Below, in pieces: positions 5,263 to 49,848 of a DNA stretch of 49,848 nt. A model generated the notes under the pieces. The model made no database searches and was not told where the DNA came from. It saw only the letters and a list, made by a program, of their open reading frames with translations. The stretch spans positions 1 through 49,848 of the IMG/VR virus record IMGVR_UViG_3300044985_000034; one strand, 5' to 3'. How positions within the stretch are numbered: position 1 is the stretch's first letter; every line of letters starts with the position of its first letter. A program made the translations under genes and the position numbers. Origin of the DNA: a virus.

Positions 5263-7575
5263 TTAATGTAATGTGCTCATAGTGAACATGTCTTCGCCAA
5301 TCTCGCTCTCGCAAGGGAATGGCACTGTGATGTTTAACTCGTCGTATGAGTTGTTAAACGTAGTTGGTACGTCTTCTAAGATTGCTTGTACTTCTCGTAC
5401 AACTGTATCAAACTTAGCGCCTTTACCGTCTAACCAAACACAATCGTGTACTGTATTAACTAGTAATATGTCACCATTGAATCGGTCATTCTTTAGCATG
5501 TAGCGGAATACTAGACCTAACATGGTCTGTACTATCTCTCCACCAAACCCTTGTACTGGATAGTTTTTACGCTCAGTTGGACTGAACCCTGTGTACTTTC
5601 CGTGTTTGTGCATGAAAGTTGGAGCAATACCTTCTCTCCACATATAGCGCGTTCCAGTAGGGCTATCCCAATGGGCTTCACCTTGTTTGAATGCGACCCC
5701 TTCAATAAAGAGGTTATGAGTTGTTGGTATACGGTTTGCATCTATCTCCGCCTTTAGTGCATCGTCGAACACTTTAACCATAGGGTACATAATCTCTTCT
5801 GCTGCTATCAGTTCATCTACTTCCGACTTAGGCATACCTATATCGTCAGCAATCGTCTGTGCACCACCACCGTATGCTCTCAAGAATGAGAACTTCTTAG
5901 CGAATGTACGACCTTGTTTGTATATCGTGTCTTCTTCTACGTGGCATTTATCCCATACGTATTGGTAGTCTTCATTTAATTTAGCGGCTAAACGCTTACA
6001 ATGGAAATCTACCTTATTGTTTAAATCTTGACATAGGTTAGGATCTCCTGTTAGTACACCTTGTACAACTACTTCCAGTTGGCTGTAGTCAATCTCAGCC
6101 ATTCTTCCACCTTCTTTAAATCTGCTTCTGAACATCTTCTTGACGTTGGATGTGTCTCCACGAGGGACATTCTGTAGGTTTGGGTCGGATGATGATAGTC
6201 TTGATGTAACCGTACTTGTGTGGTTAAGTTTGTGGTGGATAAGCCCTTGGCCGTCGACCAATGTAAGCATACCCTTACGCTTACCTTTCTTATCTTCTTT
6301 CCAGTAGTAAGTTCCCAAGTCTTTATCAAGACCCGTACGCTTAACAAGCGCGTCAGTGAAGGGCAAACCTCTCTCAGCAAGCTTAGATATGATCTTAGCT
6401 CCTGTGGAGTACAAGGGTTGGTCGTAAGCATCAGTCTGTTCTGACTTCCAAGCCCCTGAAGGCTTAGTATATCCATCAAACTTAAAGTAGTGCGGTTTTT
6501 GTGCACCTTTAGGTTTAGTGATATCGTCGGTCTTAACGTTGCGAAACTTACCTTCGCCAGCACGTTTTCCAGACATGTAACTATCTTGGACTTTGTAGAA
6601 TCGTTCATTGTGTTTAAATTGTCCTTGTGCCTCTGGTACTTCTAGTACGTATAACTCACCTGCTTTCTTACACTCACTAGGAGGTACAGGTATATTGTCG
6701 AATAGAGGATGTTTATCAGTCTTCTGTGCATATAGTACGTTTCCATTATCGTCGGTATGTGCTACCCACTTTGAATACTTTACTACACCACCAAAGATGA
6801 TACACGATTTGTGTGTGTTACTAGCCCAGTTAAATACTAACTCAGGTGGCAACTCAGGTATAAATGTCTCTAATGTTTTAGTTGCTTCTGCTAACTCAAT
6901 GATTAAGTCGTCACGTAATACGTTACCTACCTCACTGTCACAGAATACACCGTTGTATTCCATCTCACATGTAGCGAGTAGACCATCCATACGGTACTTT
7001 AACATTGTTCTAAATTCTTTTGGGTGATTCGCTTTCATCTCTTTTATCTGACCTGCGAATATCAACCATGTGTTCATTATGTCACCTACAATCTCTTTGT
7101 TACCAACTAGGTAATCATGTAGTAGGTCTGGTGGAATCTGACTGGTCAAGTAACCGTCTTCCCACATCTCTTTAACTGCGTCAATCTTCGTACCACCACC
7201 ATACTTGGTAGCAATATCGTTCATTGAACACATTTGTACGTCTTGTGTGTGACCGCCTAGTAAGTACTCAACGTATTGTCCACAATATATTGTAACACCG
7301 CGTTTGAGAGCTGCTTGGAAAGATGGACTATCCCATACCCATAGCACATCAAATTTGGTATTAAAACCATTAATAATATCACCATCTTCTAACTTGTCCC
7401 ATTGGTCTTTCATGATATCGTCACGATGCCATGCATCACAACGTTTTGATTCTGGCTTACCACCGTTCCATGACCAACCTGCTTCTACTACGTAGTTGCG
7501 TGGGTCAAATGGTGAGGCTAATCGTTTGTTTAGTCGGTGATTTTCGACTTCTAAATCAAAGGTAAGTACTTTCAT
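5263..7575 (-). CDS. DNA polymerase, family A (T7 gp5-like)
   Basis: A 770-residue replicative polymerase with an N-terminal 3'-5' exonuclease domain. Exo I is FDLEVEN (D7, E9) and Exo II is NGFNTKFD (D76). The Exo III position reads YLVGN (155-159), with Asn where the catalytic Asp is expected. Polymerase motif A is EIDYSQLE (D496). Motif B is RTFAKKFSFLRAYGG (556-570). Motif C is NTVHDCV (H710-D711). About 115 residues at 265-380 are poorly conserved and look like an insertion near the thumb, the region that binds thioredoxin in T7. The start overlaps the stop of the 66-aa gene upstream (ATGA). Confidence 0.96.
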   Translation of the reverse strand: MKVLTFDLEVENHRLNKRLASPFDPRNYVVEAGWSWNGGKPESKRCDAWHRDDIMKDQWDKLEDGDIINGFNTKFDVLWVWDSPSFQAALKRGVTIYCGQYVEYLLGGHTQDVQMCSMNDIATKYGGGTKIDAVKEMWEDGYLTSQIPPDLLHDYLVGNKEIVGDIMNTWLIFAGQIKEMKANHPKEFRTMLKYRMDGLLATCEMEYNGVFCDSEVGNVLRDDLIIELAEATKTLETFIPELPPELVFNWASNTHKSCIIFGGVVKYSKWVAHTDDNGNVLYAQKTDKHPLFDNIPVPPSECKKAGELYVLEVPEAQGQFKHNERFYKVQDSYMSGKRAGEGKFRNVKTDDITKPKGAQKPHYFKFDGYTKPSGAWKSEQTDAYDQPLYSTGAKIISKLAERGLPFTDALVKRTGLDKDLGTYYWKEDKKGKRKGMLTLVDGQGLIHHKLNHTSTVTSRLSSSDPNLQNVPRGDTSNVKKMFRSRFKEGGRMAEIDYSQLEVVVQGVLTGDPNLCQDLNNKVDFHCKRLAAKLNEDYQYVWDKCHVEEDTIYKQGRTFAKKFSFLRAYGGGAQTIADDIGMPKSEVDELIAAEEIMYPMVKVFDDALKAEIDANRIPTTHNLFIEGVAFKQGEAHWDSPTGTRYMWREGIAPTFMHKHGKYTGFSPTERKNYPVQGFGGEIVQTMLGLVFRYMLKNDRFNGDILLVNTVHDCVWLDGKGAKFDTVVREVQAILEDVPTTFNNSYDELNITVPFPCESEIGEDMFTMSTLH

Positions 7576-7772
7576 TTAACATCCTTTGTTAATAAGTCTT
7601 CTGGTCGGGCGTCTCGGTACTCTGTATTGTCGTATGTGTGACCTACTATATCTGATGGGTCACTAGTAGGGTAATGATAGGTATGATTTTCTTCTACCTG
7701 TAATACCATAGTTTGTTTACCGTACCAATTTGTAGCTACGCGATAGCGTTGTTTTCCTGTTAGTTTCTTCAT
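7572..7772 (-). CDS. Small basic hypothetical protein (66 aa)
   Basis: A 66-residue protein starting MKKLTGKQRYRVATNWYGK, with a strong AGGAGG ribosome site (the leader reads GAGGAGGGTTACG before ATG). It is the first gene after the 840-base gene-free region and is coupled to DNA polymerase by a 4-base overlap. Not recognised. Confidence 0.78.
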   Translation of the reverse strand: MKKLTGKQRYRVATNWYGKQTMVLQVEENHTYHYPTSDPSDIVGHTYDNTEYRDARPEDLLTKDVK

Positions 7773-8612
7773 CGTAACCCTCCTCGGGTTGTGTGTTAAT
7801 GTGTTTACTACTACGCACAGAGCTCTGGACCTTTGTAGCGATTATTGTCTTGTAGGTCGTTAAGACTACTACCTTATCAGATGTGCGTATGAGTAAACAT
7901 ACTATTTAATTATGTTTGTATACTGCGGCTTATCCCCGTTAGCGTACGGGCTGAACCCGCGCCCTTCGTTTCAAACTGCTCGCATCATTATATGTGTTGA
8001 CCCTCCTAGTTACCTCAGTCGTGGCCTTTGACTTCTAGTATACAAACGTAATTATTGTGAGCAGTTTAAACACATGCTCAGGTATCTTGTTTACGTCTTA
8101 TAGTGACGAGATGGACTCACCTCCTATGCGCTTGTTATAGTCTGGATAGTGACTTGTAGGTCTTTCATCTACTGTGTCAGTTTTTATACTATTTATATGA
8201 CCAATACTAGTTGCAGCTCAATATTGTTTATACTCAGTTCTCTGCTTCGAGTTACCTTTTAAAGAGTTGTATCTCTAGGGAGTTGCGGTTCGCCCATTGT
8301 ACCGACCTAGTTTTGTCCGTAGGAGGATTCACCCATTGGATGCCTACCCTTCCGTGGTAGGTTGCTTTTCGCTTAGAGACGTAACCAGCCTCAACTACCT
8401 TGCTTACTTTTATATCCCAAAGGTGTTAGATAAGTACTAGGTTTAACGAGTCTGCTTTGCTCGGTATTTTACATCTACTCGATGTAACATCAGGGCGACT
8501 TAGGTTTGAGCGCCCACTGTTTACGACCAAGCTAGTTGTCGAGTCTATACTAGACCAAGGGTTTGCTTCTGAGTTTTAATGGTCTGACTAGCCATACGCA
8601 CCATAGTAGTCT
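7773..8612 (-). ncRNA. Large structured gene-free region; candidate giant ncRNA (GOLLD/ROOL-like)
   Basis: No credible reading frame occupies these 840 bases between the endolysin and the 66-aa gene. The minus strand folds extensively. An 11-bp helix pairs 7914-7924 with 8037-8047. A 9-bp helix pairs 7973-7981 with 8059-8067 and crosses the first, making a pseudoknot. Two 7-bp helices (7803-7809 with 7892-7898; 7813-7819 with 7882-7888) stack into a long arm. Local hairpins lie at 8469-8487, 8493-8515, 8343-8361 (loop contains GGAA) and 7935-7950. Motifs such as CAATGGGYGAA occur twice. Size, structure and phage setting resemble GOLLD-type RNAs; identity is inferred, not shown by a covariance model. 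Confidence 0.7.
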
Positions 8613-8996
8613 CTACCAACGAGCTGCGATACCACGTGTATCTACGTGTACGAAGCCATCTTTAGGGTAATACCCGATACCAAGCAAGTTGGCATACGGT
8701 AAACCCTTAACTAGTAAATGTAGCTCTTTAGTGCTCATACCTTCTACTCTAATGTCAACCGCATCTGAAAGAGGGTCTTCATCTGTAGACTTATGTTCAC
8801 TGTTCTTACCACCACCTACACTACGGTTGTATTTAGTACATCTTGCTCCTGAGGATAATACTACTGGAGCATTAGCCTTCTCTCGAATATGTTCTAATAC
8901 AATGAGTATAGCAATGGACAAGCCACCAGTACCACAGCAAGAGCATACACTCTTACTGTCAGTTGCTTCTGTAAAGTGCTGTGTTTCATATTGCAT
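8613..8996 (-). CDS. Endolysin: peptidase M15-family domain
   Basis: A 127-residue zinc peptidase of the M15 / D-Ala-D-Ala carboxypeptidase fold, predicted to cut peptidoglycan cross-bridges at lysis. The metal motif is SEHKSTDEDPLSDAVDI (about 74-90), matching SxHxxG...xxD with His and Asp ligands. The distal HVD (about 118-120) supplies the third ligand and catalytic acid region. An N-terminal CSCCGTGG precedes the domain. There is no signal peptide, so release would need a holin. Holin candidates are far away at 28 kb, so the lysis genes are split. The start has an AAGGAA site. Confidence 0.85.
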   Translation of the reverse strand: MQYETQHFTEATDSKSVCSCCGTGGLSIAILIVLEHIREKANAPVVLSSGARCTKYNRSVGGGKNSEHKSTDEDPLSDAVDIRVEGMSTKELHLLVKGLPYANLLGIGYYPKDGFVHVDTRGIAARW

Positions 8997-15357: not shown

Positions 15358-15439
15358 CCTCTAAGAGCTGACGCATTAAGTCTTGCTCCGAGGGTGTATA
15401 GGAAGCAATCATTTCATCAATTTCTTCTTGTGTAGGCAT
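15323..15439 (-). CDS. Small acidic protein (38 aa)
   Basis: ATG at 15439 preceded by AAGGAGG at good distance. The 38-residue product begins MPTQEEIDEMIASYTPSEQD and is very acidic near its end (LLEDDEDEE). It overlaps the primase start by 35 bases in another frame. The strong ribosome site and location argue that it is real. Possible roles include a primase accessory or DNA mimic, but nothing specific can be seen. Confidence 0.62.
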   Translation of the reverse strand: MPTQEEIDEMIASYTPSEQDLMRQLLEDDEDEELERHC

Positions 15440-15458
15440 AGTGCCTCCTTAGTTAATA

Positions 15459-15552
15459 TGGTACGGGATGTAGGATTCGAACCTACCCGCTACACCTAGT
15501 AGTGTAACACCTCCTCAATAGAGGCGCGTCTTTCCAACTCCGCCAATCCCGT
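15459..15552 (-). tRNA. Type II tRNA with Leu-like body; anticodon ambiguous
   Basis: The 94-nt minus-strand sequence has a perfect acceptor stem (ACGGGAT with ATCCCGT), encoded A73-CCA, a D arm GCG/CGC with GG in the loop, a long variable arm (TACAC/GTGTA) and a T arm GTAGG-TTCGAAT-CCTAC. The long variable arm makes it Leu, Ser or Tyr; A73 and the D arm favour Leu. The anticodon arm is odd. The fully paired register gives loop TATTGAG, lacking U33. The canonical register gives loop ATTGAGG and anticodon TGA (Ser), with a C-T mismatch in the stem. Confidence 0.85.
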
Positions 15553-16170
15553 GTAAATTTGTTTATGTGTACATCTTTCGAACAAAGATGTACATGTAAC
15601 CAAACTCTACCACTCCAACGGCTGCTTATGACCTTGTAGGGAGTGGCTTGTTACGATTCTAAACGGTACATTTTAACTACGCATAATTTATTCCTTTAGT
15701 TATAAATAATAATCCCTAAACAACCTAACGTCTAATGTGCCAACTTCTGTATACCAGATGTGCAAATTCAGTTAAAGGTGTTTAGGAGTATTACTCAAGT
15801 ATGCCATTCTGGCTGAGGTTTGTTGCCTCGTTATACCGAATTTAATCGGTTGACTATACGTGTAAGTATAAATCCGATAGCACACTGGGGATCGCCAATG
15901 TACTAACGAGTTATACTAATATCATCTTATTTTATACACTAGGTGACAAAGTGTACCTACTTATACGTGTTGAACCTACGGATAAGCAGGATTTCCGGAT
16001 TTAGCTCCTATTTGTGGAATTTATCGTCCACCCACCTGATCAAGGCTTCGCCAACATGTATAGGTACATGGATAGGTAGTCTCTAACCCTTACACTATCA
16101 TCTAAGGGTATACGCCCACCTTAGGAGTGGGATTTCTGCTTACTGTCTGGACAAGTCCATCCTAATAAAC
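15553..16170 (-). ncRNA. Second large structured gene-free region, directly upstream of the tRNA
   Basis: About 620 bases without a credible gene lie between the terminator after the 153-aa gene and the tRNA. The minus strand has many pairing elements. These include an 11-bp hairpin at 15568-15594 just before the tRNA, a 7-bp stem 15610-15616 with 15640-15646, an 8-bp stem 15715-15722 with 15779-15786, and hairpins at 15835-15850 and 15935-15955. A 7-8 base segment at 15983-15989 can pair either with 16136-16142 or with 15622-15628, so alternative folds exist. Length and tRNA linkage resemble ROOL/GOLLD-class phage RNAs. Assignment is inference. Confidence 0.62.
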
Positions 16171-16200
16171 TTTATAAAGCAACCTACATTAGTAGGTTAC
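16171..16200 (-). terminator. Hairpin terminator after the 153-aa gene
   Basis: On the minus strand a 7-bp stem (AACCTAC/GTAGGTT, loop TAAT) is followed by GCTTTATAAAG. It lies 24 bases after the stop of the gene at 16222-16683 and at the 5' border of the structured region, so it could end the early transcript or mark the RNA's start. The T run is short. Confidence 0.55.
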
Positions 16201-16221
16201 TTGAAAAGCTTACTACAAGGA

Positions 16222-19112: not shown

Positions 19113-19365
19113 TGTCGGTTTCCTTTTGTTGTGAATTTGTTGGGCATTGTCGGTATCCCCTCCCGTCCCGCTTTTGACCTTGGCGAGTCTCCGAGCTGCA
19201 CTTAGTGATTGAACGGTGTTACGTTCAGCCTCGCAGAGCTCTTTTGACCTTAGCGTCAGGATGACAAGAGCGTTAGTGCTTTAGCACGCAGGGAAGACGA
19301 AGTCTTTCATGAACGCCCATCTTGTGACCTTAATCTTTAATCACTAAATCTTTAAGACCTTGACC
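19113..19365 (-). promoter_or_regulatory. Intergenic control region with TAAGGTCAA repeats
   Basis: This 253-base gap holds no gene. On the minus strand it carries four copies of the motif TAAGGTCA or close variants (plus-strand ttgacctt at 19174, 19244, 19325 and 19360). Two of them are extended to TAAAGATTAAGGTCA and lie 35 bases apart. A hairpin (GTGCTAAAGCAC) sits near 19282. It follows the early RNA polymerase by two transcription units, so the repeats may be promoter or operator elements; this is inference. Confidence 0.5.
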
Positions 19366-19542: not shown

Positions 19543-19712
19543 GTTAACCTCTGGTGTTGTGTGTGGTGCGCCCTCCGCTTGAGGAGTCCCCGAAGGGAAC
19601 ACGCTTTTAGCTGAGGGACGAAGTTTCATTATAATCACTAGGCTTTAGTTGCCGTCTGCTAGGACGAACTTGACCTGTGACGTGGGAGCGCAGCGACCTC
19701 AGTCACTAACGC

Positions 19713-19736
19713 GATAAAGGCACAATTAAGTGCCTC
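19713..19736 (-). terminator. Intrinsic terminator after the early RNA polymerase gene
   Basis: Minus strand: stem AGGCAC/GTGCCT with loop TTAATT followed by TTTATC, 21 bases after the polymerase stop at 19757. It would end the transcript of the polymerase operon. Confidence 0.7.
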
Positions 19737-19756
19737 GGTTGTTTGTGTGTGTATGT

Positions 19757-22081: not shown

Positions 22082-22517
22082 AGTACTCTCCAGTTGTTTA
22101 CGGTTATCACGGTTGTTCGTTTTCGGGCGTAACGCTTGTAACTCAGGTGAATAGGTTGTACCAGTCGCGCTTGCGCCCTCGAAGAGGTTGACTTGTACGT
22201 TCTAGGCACTTGTGTTTCAACTTGAGTGAAGCCGCAAACGGACGAGTGTGATAATCATAGCACCGAGAGTGTTGTCTAACTAAACAGAAGTGCTTAGTGA
22301 TACTTACAATATCAGTGGTAAGTAAGATTTACTTGACCTTATCTTTTGAACTTAATCTCTTGAACTTGACCTTAATTACTGCCCGTCTAGCGAGAAGCAT
22401 TTAACGTCTCTTTGTTAAATCTTGGAGTAGGGAGAGTCTTTTGACCTTCCCTTATTCCCTAACTAATTATTACGTTGTAAGCTACTATAATCTTTACTAG
22501 TAACTTATACTTAATAA
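22082..22517 (-). promoter_or_regulatory. Gene-free control region upstream of the early RNA polymerase operon
   Basis: These 436 bases contain no convincing gene. They hold at least three TTGACCTT(A) motifs on the plus strand (22333, 22366, 22441) plus the variants TTGAACTTA at 22346 and TTGAACTT at 22360, a density not seen elsewhere. Several GC-richer imperfect inverted repeats lie at 22140-22260. It separates the first early block from the polymerase operon, so promoters or operators are likely, but I cannot fix a start site. Confidence 0.5.
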
Positions 22518-23861: not shown

Positions 23862-23870
23862 AATATACTC

Positions 23871-23942
23871 CTAGTCACCCATACTGATACATAACATTAC
23901 AACTATACTTAACATTATAACTATACTTAATAATAACTCCAT
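23871..23942 (-). CDS. Tiny membrane peptide (23 aa)
   Basis: ATG at 23942 preceded by TAGGAGGTAGT, an excellent ribosome site. The peptide is almost wholly hydrophobic (ELLLSIVIMLSIVVMLCIS), a single transmembrane helix. Phages often encode such micro-membrane proteins early; their targets are mostly unknown. Confidence 0.55.
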   Translation of the reverse strand: MELLLSIVIMLSIVVMLCISMGD

Positions 23943-24013
23943 ACTACCTCCTATCTACTTAATTAATGTTAAGCGTCACCTTGTTCTAAAACTCATTCTA
24001 TGAAATTATACGG

Positions 24014-24160
24014 TTATGCCTTTGACTCTAGCTTACTAACGTAGTCTTTCATCAGGAGTATTAAGCATTTACGTATAACACTTATTATACCTCCTGTGTT
24101 ATCTCTTTGTAAATCAGCTAATAAACCTTTTGCTAATACTTTTCTTTTATTCATGTTCAT
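24014..24160 (-). CDS. Small basic protein, first gene of the early region (48 aa)
   Basis: ATG at 24160 with AGTAGGAGGTTACT upstream. The 48-residue product (MNMNKRKVLAKGLLADLQRD...) has a basic start and a hydrophobic helix (IISVIRKCLILLMKDYVSK). It is the first frame after the gene-free segment that separates terminase from the early genes. Confidence 0.62.
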   Translation of the reverse strand: MNMNKRKVLAKGLLADLQRDNTGGIISVIRKCLILLMKDYVSKLESKA

Positions 24161-24340
24161 AGTAACCTCCTACTAATTCATCTATCTACTATCCTAATGT
24201 TCTGGATAAGCTTTGCATTTGCCGCCCTATAATAAAGAAGGATAGGGCAGTTTAGTACATAAATGTTAGCACATAGAGAACAGTACAACACACATATAAA
24301 CACATACTACACACATACAAACACATTTAATACACTTTCG

Positions 24341-24363
24341 AAAAAGACATATCAAGGGATGTA
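24341..24363. repeat. 23-base direct repeat, copy 1
   Basis: The 23 bases from 24341 (starting AAAAAGACATATCA) recur at 24393-24415 with two mismatches, 52 bases apart. The length is like that of T7-family promoters (about 23 bp), so a phage promoter or a binding site is possible on the minus strand, but nothing fixes the function. Confidence 0.75.
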
Positions 24364-24392
24364 GCAGTGAGCATATACATAACACTGAAAGC

Positions 24393-24415
24393 AAAAAGAC
24401 ATATCAGTGGATGTA
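24393..24415. repeat. 23-base direct repeat, copy 2
   Basis: Second copy of the unit at 24341-24363, differing at two central positions (AAGG versus AGTG context). Both copies precede the first early gene. Confidence 0.75.
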
Positions 24416-24822
24416 GAGGAGTGAGTCACCAAGCACACCAACATACTCACCATAAGCAAAGATATAAGCCTAAGCCTACAATGAATACACCAATGTAACC
24501 AAGTGCACCAGCACCACGCAGTGGTAGCACCACGCTATTAGTGGTATCACTATGCTTGTGTTGCGTAGAGCTATCGTAGTGCGTAGCACGTCTGCACTTT
24601 GCCCTCAAGGAGGAACGACGACGGGCATGAAGCTCTTAAGAACAGAGCCTCGCGGAGAGTGTGTTACACATGTAACGCCTTGCGCGTAGCAATGCTCAAC
24701 GTGAGTTGCTCCTTGCGAGTAGCAAAGCAAACGAAGCCGAAGGCTTTGTGCGGTAGTTCTGTTAGCATCCAATGCAATTGGTCATTCAATGAATATTGAC
24801 AGCCCTCTGCTGTTAAGAGCAT

Positions 24823-24869
24823 CCCCCTTAGGGGGAATATAGGGGGAAATCTTGAGGGGGAGTGCCCCC
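24823..24869. repeat. G/C-tract palindromes after the terminase operon
   Basis: CCCCC-TTA-GGGGG at 24823-24835 and GGGGG-AGTG-CCCCC at 24856-24869, with a further GGGGG at 24842-24846. On the minus strand these give two hairpins and four C5 tracts about 115-160 bases after the last late gene. They could terminate late transcription or mark the packaging/cleavage region. Confidence 0.65.
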
Positions 24870-24982
24870 ATAAACTTGTTACCTGTTTTTAATATTTTGG
24901 TAGTTGCAGTATGTTGGTAACTCACTGTAACTCACTACAACCTATGTAACCGTCCAATGGACGACTACACAAGTTCTATACA

Positions 24983-48468: not shown

Positions 48469-49848
48469 AATCTCCCCGTGGTAACCCTCGGGTCGATACA
48501 CCCTGCTGATCCGCCCAATGACGGATTGGGTCTGTTTTAGTATACATATGGCGAAATGCTCGCCTAATGGTCTTAAACAGCTTACCAGTGTTCCCAGCGT
48601 GTGTACCGAAATCATCGTGAATCATTGCGTAGGAATGTAAATCTACCGCATTGATAGTTAATACCATATGAGAGCTATCAACCGAATGTACGAAATTTGG
48701 TGAAATCCCGCTCCGTTGACCTGCTAGGTATACACCACCTGCGTTAGCATCTGGTACATACAACTTCACTTTACCTTCCAAGTGTGTGCACACCTCCACC
48801 ATGTTGTCTATCTTATAGTGTTGGTATACTGGAAAGCCGATTATTGTCTTCCACTGACAAAAGTCTGTCCCTACGTTCTTTTGAAGCCATGCCATAGCAG
48901 CTCTCGCAGCGACCACTACCTCACCTATGGCTGACCATAGTATCGGTGTAAGGTATTTAGCCATTGCCCACTGTTCTTTCTCGTCCATATTGAACTTAGT
49001 CCAGTTATCTAGTACATATTCGAATATGTAGTTTCGGGCTGACTGCTGAGTAGCTCCATAGGGAAGCGTCATTACAGGTCTTTTGGCGCACTTACGGGTA
49101 ATGCCCACCTGTAACCAGATTTTAGCTAACGCACAACCATCATCAGCTAATACTTGTAGCTTGTCGGTTGTAACTTGCGCTACCTCTCCGTAAATATCTT
49201 CGGGTTTATCACAGTCTAATAGGTTAGTAGCTTTTGCGCCTACTTCGTCTCTTAACATTGCTGAGAAGTGTTGAAGTCCATTACAACTACCATCTAGCCC
49301 TACAGCTAAATGACCTATTGCTTCTGGGTTTCTACCATAGTCAGAACGTCCCCATTCAAAGCAGAATGCTAGGAACTGATATGGTTTGTCAGCTTCACTC
49401 CATTGAGTGTTGCTAATTGGGTCTTCAACGATAGCGCGGATTAATGGTTCGTTGTCTAGTACCCATTGGACTCTATCCTCGTAAGGTAGTTTGTCCTCAC
49501 CAAATACATTAGCACCTTGTATTGCTAACCATTTAATGCCCTCTTTACCAAGTCTCACACCCTTATCGAATCTTAACAATCCTTTAGCTGAGTCTGAACC
49601 TTGTGGTGATAAACCTGTTGTAGCACAGTATATACGTCCTCTAAAGTCACAGTTGTACACGAAGTACAGGCTGTCCCATGAACGTAGTTCTTGTGCTAAT
49701 AGATGTCCTTGTCGGAATCCTATCACTTGTCCTTTACGTTGACGCTCGTTATCATGTTGTTTCTTACGTAACATCTTCCAAGCTGTGATTTCATCTATTT
49801 GTTCTTGTGTATGTGTACCTTTTTCAACATCTGCTAAGTGCTCTGGGA
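48425..49848 (-). CDS. T7-type single-subunit RNA polymerase, C-terminal part (gene continues at the other contig end)
   Basis: This is the catalytic half of the 797-residue polymerase whose start is at 1133. T7 motifs are almost textbook: CDFRGRIYCATTGLSPQGSD near 390 (T7 DWRGRVYAV), motif A GLDGSCNGLQHFSAMLRDEV (about D509, T7 D537), motif B TRKCAKRPVMTLPYGA (about K579, Y587) and motif C AMIHDDFGT (about H734-D735). The C-terminus DIDDITKATYFFG has the expected aromatic foot. The last 163 bases are duplicated at 1-163. Its stop overlaps the cupin-like gene. Confidence 0.95.
   Translation of the reverse strand, partial: PEHLADVEKGTHTQEQIDEITAWKMLRKKQHDNERQRKGQVIGFRQGHLLAQELRSWDSLYFVYNCDFRGRIYCATTGLSPQGSDSAKGLLRFDKGVRLGKEGIKWLAIQGANVFGEDKLPYEDRVQWVLDNEPLIRAIVEDPISNTQWSEADKPYQFLAFCFEWGRSDYGRNPEAIGHLAVGLDGSCNGLQHFSAMLRDEVGAKATNLLDCDKPEDIYGEVAQVTTDKLQVLADDGCALAKIWLQVGITRKCAKRPVMTLPYGATQQSARNYIFEYVLDNWTKFNMDEKEQWAMAKYLTPILWSAIGEVVVAARAAMAWLQKNVGTDFCQWKTIIGFPVYQHYKIDNMVEVCTHLEGKVKLYVPDANAGGVYLAGQRSGISPNFVHSVDSSHMVLTINAVDLHSYAMIHDDFGTHAGNTGKLFKTIRRAFRHMYTKTDPIRHWADQQGVSTRGLPRGDYDIDDITKATYFFG
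49686..49848. repeat. Contig-end direct repeat, right copy
   Basis: Copy of bases 1-163 with T at 49721 versus A at 36. It supports circular closure of the contig; the true length without duplication is about 49,685. Confidence 0.95.

Follow-up and report, generated by a model that had tools for sequence, protein, structure and literature searches.

The 840-nt gap at positions 7773-8612 of the window, by which we mean the whole stretch of viral DNA analyzed here (49,848 nucleotides), carries on its minus strand a compact H-type pseudoknot of about 28 nt that belongs to a widespread family. At least 405 distinct sites satisfy both stems of this element, in unrelated viral contigs, named phages and bacterial genomes. 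We hold with high confidence that the element exists and that the copy in the window is a member of the family. To our knowledge, this widespread pseudoknot is undescribed. It was absent from Rfam 15 wherever tested, and searches of open papers with its letters, with descriptions of it and with the associated peptide considered below returned nothing relevant; an earlier description in the subscription literature is possible.

The record of 49,848 bases begins and ends with 163-bp direct terminal repeats (1-163 and 49686-49848, 99% identical), which indicates that the phage genome is probably complete. Among named phages, the nearest relatives of its DNA polymerase are those of the Foturvirus phages of Alteromonas (67%). 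The gene order on the minus strand is ribonucleotide reductase, a MazG-like gene, an M15 peptidase, the 840-nt gap, a gene of 66 amino acids and the DNA polymerase. The initial annotation had called the gap gene-free, and this was borne out, as it is flanked by two minus-strand genes and holds no plausible gene; candidates considered and rejected included small genes hidden in the gap or ending right before the pseudoknot. The sole tRNA of the window, at 15459-15552, is about 7 kb away. Two other long gaps are present in the table of open reading frames, at 15358-16221 and 23862-24982, the first of which contains a long tRNA-Gln of 94 nt, and an 840-nt segment starting at 15501 was far more stable than its shuffles (z -11.6, from eight shuffles only). 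Elsewhere on the minus strand, TTAMATTMATTAAGTARRTA occurs three times before small genes (22937, 23456 and 23971), perhaps as promoters of a phage RNA polymerase, and AGGTCAA words are repeated, for no reason that we can give, in the gene-free gaps 19113-19365, 19639-19756 and 22082-22517.

Table 1. Features in and around the 840-nt gap of the window.
Feature	Position	Strand	Evidence or remark
Upstream gene, peptidase M15 family (PF08291)	8613-8996	-	
Second conserved island ACCGAGCAAAGCAGACUCGUUAAACCUAG	8437-8465	-	29 nt, 100% identical in L132
H-type pseudoknot AUACCUGAGCAUGUGUUUAAACUGCUC	8085-8059	-	Pattern match, covariation, compensatory change in L132
Stem 1 of pseudoknot	8085-8082 with 8073-8070	-	AUAC/GUGU
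Loop 1 of pseudoknot, CU	8081-8080	-	
Stem 2 of pseudoknot	8079-8075 with 8063-8059	-	GAGCA/UGCUC
Junction base of pseudoknot	8074	-	
Loop 3 of pseudoknot, UUAAAC	8069-8064	-	
Structured 150-nt domain, directly 3' of pseudoknot	7905-8058	-	Kept in L132; z -5.5 for 7905-8085
Closing helix of 150-nt domain, 5' strand, containing the 11-bp helix of the initial annotation	8037-8054	-	Both known sequences
Closing helix of 150-nt domain, 3' strand	7907-7924	-	Both known sequences
GAGCAGUUU, potential 9-bp pairing with 8059-8067	7973-7981	-	Exact complementarity; unique among the 405 members listed
Two-part hairpin arm, not conserved	7803-7898 (7803-7819 with 7882-7898)	-	15/17 pairs; absent from L132
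Downstream gene, 66 amino acids, family unknown	7572-7772	-	AGGAGG ribosome-binding site at 7784-7779

The pattern of the pseudoknot occurs once in the window, where shuffles of the window predict no occurrence. This copy fits the consensus NNNC-CU-GAGYA-N-GN'N'N'-NNAAAC-UGCUC with four plus five base pairs. In its general form the element has a stem 1 of NNNC/GN'N'N', a CU loop, one junction base and a final loop ending in AAAC, and besides GAGYA/UGCUC its stem 2 is found as AAGCA/UGCUU, AGGCA/UGCCU and GGACA/UGUCC.

The first lead came from blastn, which returned 26-nt matches at one intergenic spot in Roseobacter-group and crAss-like phages. With a pattern of a 21-base core, CCTGAGCATGTNNNTAAACTGCTC, at least 120 viral contig stretches were then recovered. 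In these, changes in the base that precedes ACC go together with changes in the base that follows GT, which defines a stem crossing the GAGCA/TGCTC stem. Wider scans, in which parts of each stem were freed and bacterial genomes were added, yielded the generalized consensus. As a guard against circularity, each stem was tested on matches that had been selected without using that stem. The three free positions of stem 1 were paired in 107, 106 and 78 of the 115 matches from the genome set, compared with 54, 83 and 52 after shuffling. In the viral set (n = 126) the outer two pairs of stem 1 formed in 111 and 99 matches, compared with 65 and 56 after shuffling, and the pairs of stem 2 in 91-107, compared with 73-83; these viral-set values were reached in none of 2000 shuffles. 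Pair counting over an alignment of 95 sequences, some of them hand-picked as members, found 95.4% of cells paired, as against 23-42% when the partner was slid, and 110 cells changed on both sides, as against 35 in shuffles, none of 500 of which gave so high a count. Comparative evidence of this kind establishes the element as an RNA structure with two crossing, covarying stems.

The bacterial genome scan gave at least 116 stretches from many phyla. Named carriers include Siovirus, crAss-like phages, Chaseviridae and phages of Lactobacillus, Staphylococcus, Nostoc, Mycobacterium and Arthrobacter hosts. Loci that already held one copy contained 33 extra copies in 1.1 Mb, with none expected. The copy in Staphylococcus phage 80 lies between the head and scaffold genes and makes four of the five pairs of stem 2, that of Nostoc phage NMeng1 is directly ahead of a tRNA pseudogene, and the element is also carried by Mycobacterium phage Labelle, by Lactobacillus phages and, with a weaker stem 1, by Escherichia phages flopper and phiEcoM-GJ1.

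Some of the carriers deserve separate mention. In Chaseviridae, the pseudoknot is held by regions of 0.9-1.5 kb with few or no genes (L139 2390-3611, L523 611-1508 and L144 1416-2934). This gene-poor region also has a tRNA-Arg annotated as possibly intron-containing and is conserved across many Escherichia phages, which makes it suitable material for a covariation study. In the crAss-like phage cr7_1, a stretch of 630 nt without genes (L003 983-1615) contains the pseudoknot, a second imperfect copy of it and a sequence resembling the 3' half of a tRNA, GGGTTCGAATCCC. At L463 (1679-1778), the GP20-b RNA (RF03003) starts 18 nt past the pseudoknot, upstream of a scaffold gene.

Within the gap itself, conservation could be followed in one homologous phage sequence, L132, from the nearest relative that has the gap, which is 87% identical to window positions 8082-7905, the pseudoknot included. 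The only other parts of the gap that align with L132 are the island (8437-8465) and the ribosome-binding site ahead of the 66-amino-acid gene; a 24-nt core of this island recurs in a gene-free stretch of contig L502. Stem 1 in L132 reads CGUC/GACG, a compensatory change relative to the window, and the formation of stem 2 there requires a last loop two bases longer. The closing helix of the 150-nt domain that follows the pseudoknot makes 17 pairs with one mismatch in the window. In L132 its 11-bp part is kept and extends to 17 pairs, and one C-to-U change between the two sequences preserves a G-U pair. Two search patterns found the domain in no other IMG/VR contig population. The domain probably folds as a structured RNA, a fold that two sequences cannot prove. 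We rejected the closing helix as a module shared with Chaseviridae, since similar strands exist in flopper and GJ1 but an automated partner test was negative and homology is unproven, and as a phage promoter, since it is unlike the one annotated GJ1 promoter that was inspected. What is conserved is a 28-nt knot common to hundreds of unrelated genomes and a 150-nt domain common to one other phage.

The initial annotation had seen in this region a structured minus-strand RNA with a pseudoknot formed by an 11-bp helix (7914-7924 with 8037-8047) and a 9-bp helix (7973-7981 with 8059-8067). Both helices are exact and they do cross. The minus strand does carry a structured, pseudoknotted RNA, as proposed there, but the knot with comparative backing is a different, smaller one that shares the strand 8059-8063. 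The larger knot was rejected as a functional structure. Its 9-bp helix is broken in L132, where the copy of GAGCAGUUU is retained but its pairing partner is shifted by two bases, and the 9-bp partner GAGCAGTTT adjoins only one of the 405 family members listed, the window's own. Where it is present, GAGCAGUUU could pair with 8059-8067 at the expense of stem 2 of the pseudoknot. The hairpin arm also noted there exists in the window but not in the homologue. The density of long pairs, which had been judged improbable, is a real excess, with eight complementary 9-mer pairs in the gap against 1.4 in 1000 dinucleotide shuffles (p ~0.001), but a lone 11-bp match arises in 5.5% of shuffles.

Folding energy does not set the whole gap apart. 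Its MFE z-score was -2.5 (60 shuffles), compared with -2.4 +/- 2.6 for 840-nt windows of the genome; a run with only 20 shuffles gave -3.1. Windows of 420 nt had a background of -1.7 +/- 1.5, by which measure the 5' half of the gap (8193-8612) was unremarkable at -1.3 and the 3' half mildly stable at -3.8, and the segment 7905-8085, which was picked after its conservation had been seen, reached -5.5 against the same 420-nt background.

The element is mostly intergenic and runs in the same direction as the gene whose end precedes it. Among the 405 members listed, 242 have, no more than 60 nt upstream, the end of a frame of 80 codons or more. The distance from the stop codon to the first C of CCU in these is 8 nt in 61 members, 9 nt in 27 and 7 nt in 6, and a nearer stop was found in one, at 3 nt. 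A stop at 8 nt leaves a spacer of 5 nt between the stop codon and stem 1, and a folded stem 5 nt past the stop about clears the entry channel of the terminating ribosome. Start codons downstream that have a ribosome-binding site lie mostly 19-29 nt after the element, and few are nearer. The other 163 members listed, the window included, have no long frame ending within 60 nt upstream. An upstream stop or downstream start no more than about 30 nt away is frequent among members, though not universal; the copy in the window lies about 530 nt after the peptidase gene and 285 nt before the 66-amino-acid gene, so that the spacing rule is invisible there. Sequence conservation stops at the stems, after which comes a G-poor tail.

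Neighboring genes are diverse (ribonucleotide reductase, Hsp20, ssDNA-binding protein, scaffold, thioredoxin, PhoH, thymidylate synthase and endolysin), which argues against a switch for a single metabolite. A riboswitch with a single ligand such as preQ1 or SAM was rejected because of the diversity of the downstream genes and because no Rfam family matched at the element. The upstream stops are mostly UAA and the read-through frames are short in most members, which argues against recoding, and a stimulator of readthrough or frameshifting was rejected on this evidence, in a survey that did not systematically cover slippery sites.

A separate observation concerns a gene for a 20-residue peptide, approximately MKRFxIPRxAHCxxGCxxxS, whose UGA stop sits inside the pseudoknot (CCUGA). 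It is found at L385, L386, L389, L394, L399, L401, L408, L412, L425, L426, L442, L445 and L492, in Aminicenantes, Deltaproteobacteria, Actinomycetes, KSB1 and others. Some of these loci are flanked by promoter-like and terminator-like sequences, with a terminator-like hairpin after the element. The peptide had no match in NCBIfam, and no paper on it was found in the open literature. Reading of the UGA within the knot as selenocysteine was rejected, since the frame closes soon after it in several of the loci.

Our preferred explanation is that the element is folded at all times and acts between cistrons as a barrier that fixes mRNA ends. The gap would be an untranslated part of the replication-gene transcript of a Foturvirus-like podophage, and it holds one copy of the widespread H-type pseudoknot, with a lineage-specific structured domain behind it. 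With a stop mostly at least 8 nt before it and a start usually at least 20 nt after it, the element should lie outside the footprints of both the terminating and the initiating ribosome and would thus stay folded while both genes are translated. In the folded state it could passively halt exonucleases, and perhaps drifting ribosomes, in a polycistronic phage mRNA, and so set and protect the mRNA ends between neighboring genes. The fixed CU and AAAC loops would, by analogy with other compact pseudoknots, most likely serve to lock the fold through loop-stem triples and not to bind a gene-specific ligand. Such a barrier would account for the position of the element, its breadth and its lack of gene specificity, and REP elements offer a precedent (PMC12306157). 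We infer the barrier role from position only, and the whole explanation, mechanism included, is offered tentatively, as somewhat short of an even chance. The peptide genes of one set of bacterial loci count against it, because translation up to a stop inside the element would unfold the element there, and so do the terminator-like hairpin after it in some of these loci and the copy in the window, at which the spacing rule cannot be seen.

The near-invariant sequence also exceeds the needs of a mere barrier and could indicate a specific partner. The pseudoknot might then have a regulatory role and bind a universal factor (the ribosome, RNA polymerase or an RNase) or some common small molecule. 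It could, for instance, serve as a site of landing or cleavage at which the downstream 5' end is made, or be a put-like RNA that modifies RNA polymerase. We regard this as possible but doubtful. In its favor, the loops and the junction are nearly invariant across phyla; however, tertiary contacts within the fold can explain invariant loops, and the apparent invariance is partly a product of search patterns that fixed CCT and AAAC. The presence of several copies in the genomes of some phages, a TATAAT-like promoter just upstream in some viral contigs, which places the element in a 5' leader, and the start of the cis-regulatory GP20-b soon after the element in one prophage are all consistent with regulation, but the flanking genes are too varied for one ligand, no expression platform is visible and the ribosome-binding site lies outside the element. 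In its broadest form, an undescribed RNA class of less than 30 nt, in phages of many phyla and in some bacteria, may be a universal gene-boundary signal in polycistronic messages that acts through a pan-bacterial partner, with a related set being part of a minute gene for a conserved 20-residue Cys-His peptide whose stop lies inside the knot. This combined reading we consider unlikely.

Another alternative to the barrier is that the element tunes the termination of the upstream gene, with a knot at the entry channel that slows the ribosome at the stop codon or prevents its drift. The sharp peak of stops exactly 8 nt before the element would fit such a role, and the resulting 5-nt spacer falls within the range used by frameshift pseudoknots. 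The 20-residue peptide genes terminate inside the element, and REP elements no more than 15 nt from a stop are known to stall ribosomes (PMC12306157). The large fraction of members that have no long frame ending nearby (163 of the 405 listed, the window among them) and the ordinary identity of the stop codons nevertheless make this explanation improbable.

The initial annotation had proposed a candidate giant phage RNA, of a class such as GOLLD and ROOL or of a new one; in a reading of this kind, the pseudoknot and the 150-nt domain would be parts of a single non-coding RNA that takes up all 840 nt. GOLLD and ROOL are frequently near tRNAs, and cryo-EM structures of them are available (PMC12286853). 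Like them, the region is phage-borne, structured and several hundred nucleotides long, and in Chaseviridae the regions holding the pseudoknot also adjoin a tRNA. However, no Rfam 15 family reached its gathering cut-off anywhere in the window, and at E<=10 there were zero matches on either strand of 7500-8800, GOLLD, ROOL, HEARO and OLE included, which excludes these four at the level of sequence and structure. The distant tRNA of the window, a global stability that equals the background, and a gap mostly unalignable with its homologue, in place of a covariation-backed global structure over 600-900 nt, likewise led us to abandon a cage-forming RNA of this type. A large RNA of some other kind could draw on L132, which has, in the same place, an 890-nt gene-free gap containing the conserved domain and, 355 nt ahead of the pseudoknot, the other conserved segment of 29 nt, and on the gene-poor Chaseviridae regions that also carry the pseudoknot. 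Given the average stability, the unremarkable 5' half, the poor alignment, the lack of any Rfam match and the absence of the gap from other relatives, we think this quite improbable. Least probable is a small RNA that cleaves itself and thereby the polycistronic message: the element is small, knotted and intercistronic with invariant loops, but it is unlike any known ribozyme core, it matches no Rfam ribozyme, and the natural self-cleaving RNAs known to us are all larger.

Few RNA classes extend across so many phyla together with their phages, and searches built on larger conserved structures would miss one so small. Several carriers (flopper, phiEcoM-GJ1, Labelle and phage 80) are experimentally easy, so that a role at mRNA ends or in translation is readily testable, and in the annotation of phages, long gene-free regions would gain a new landmark.

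Among known systems, REP elements form stable structures after stop codons that block exonucleases and, within 15 nt of the stop, stall ribosomes (PMC12306157). The element resembles them as a stable intergenic RNA structure just past stop codons, and the pseudoknot family shares their position, the blocking of exonucleases being putative by this analogy. REP elements, in contrast, are palindromic hairpins repeated many times within one enterobacterial genome, whereas the element is no simple inverted repeat but a pseudoknot with crossing stems and invariant loops, found in many phyla with one to a few copies per phage and one in the window. GP20-b is likewise a cis-regulatory phage RNA, located upstream of the GP20 scaffold gene and adjoining the element in L463, but it is a separate 62-nt structure that excludes the pseudoknot. 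In architecture, the closest parallels are compact H-type pseudoknots such as the frameshift element of the luteovirus BWYV and the class I preQ1 riboswitches, which have about 28-34 nt, two short stems and an A-rich last loop; the luteovirus pseudoknots also have a short first loop, as does the element. It differs from these in its conserved bases, in the lack of signs of recoding or, within the survey described above, of a slippery site, in the absence of preQ1 genes and in matching no Rfam model. Finally, the pseudoknot in the leader of T4 gene 32 is also a small pseudoknot in a phage message, but it is the autoregulatory site of one gene, whereas the element adjoins dozens of gene families.
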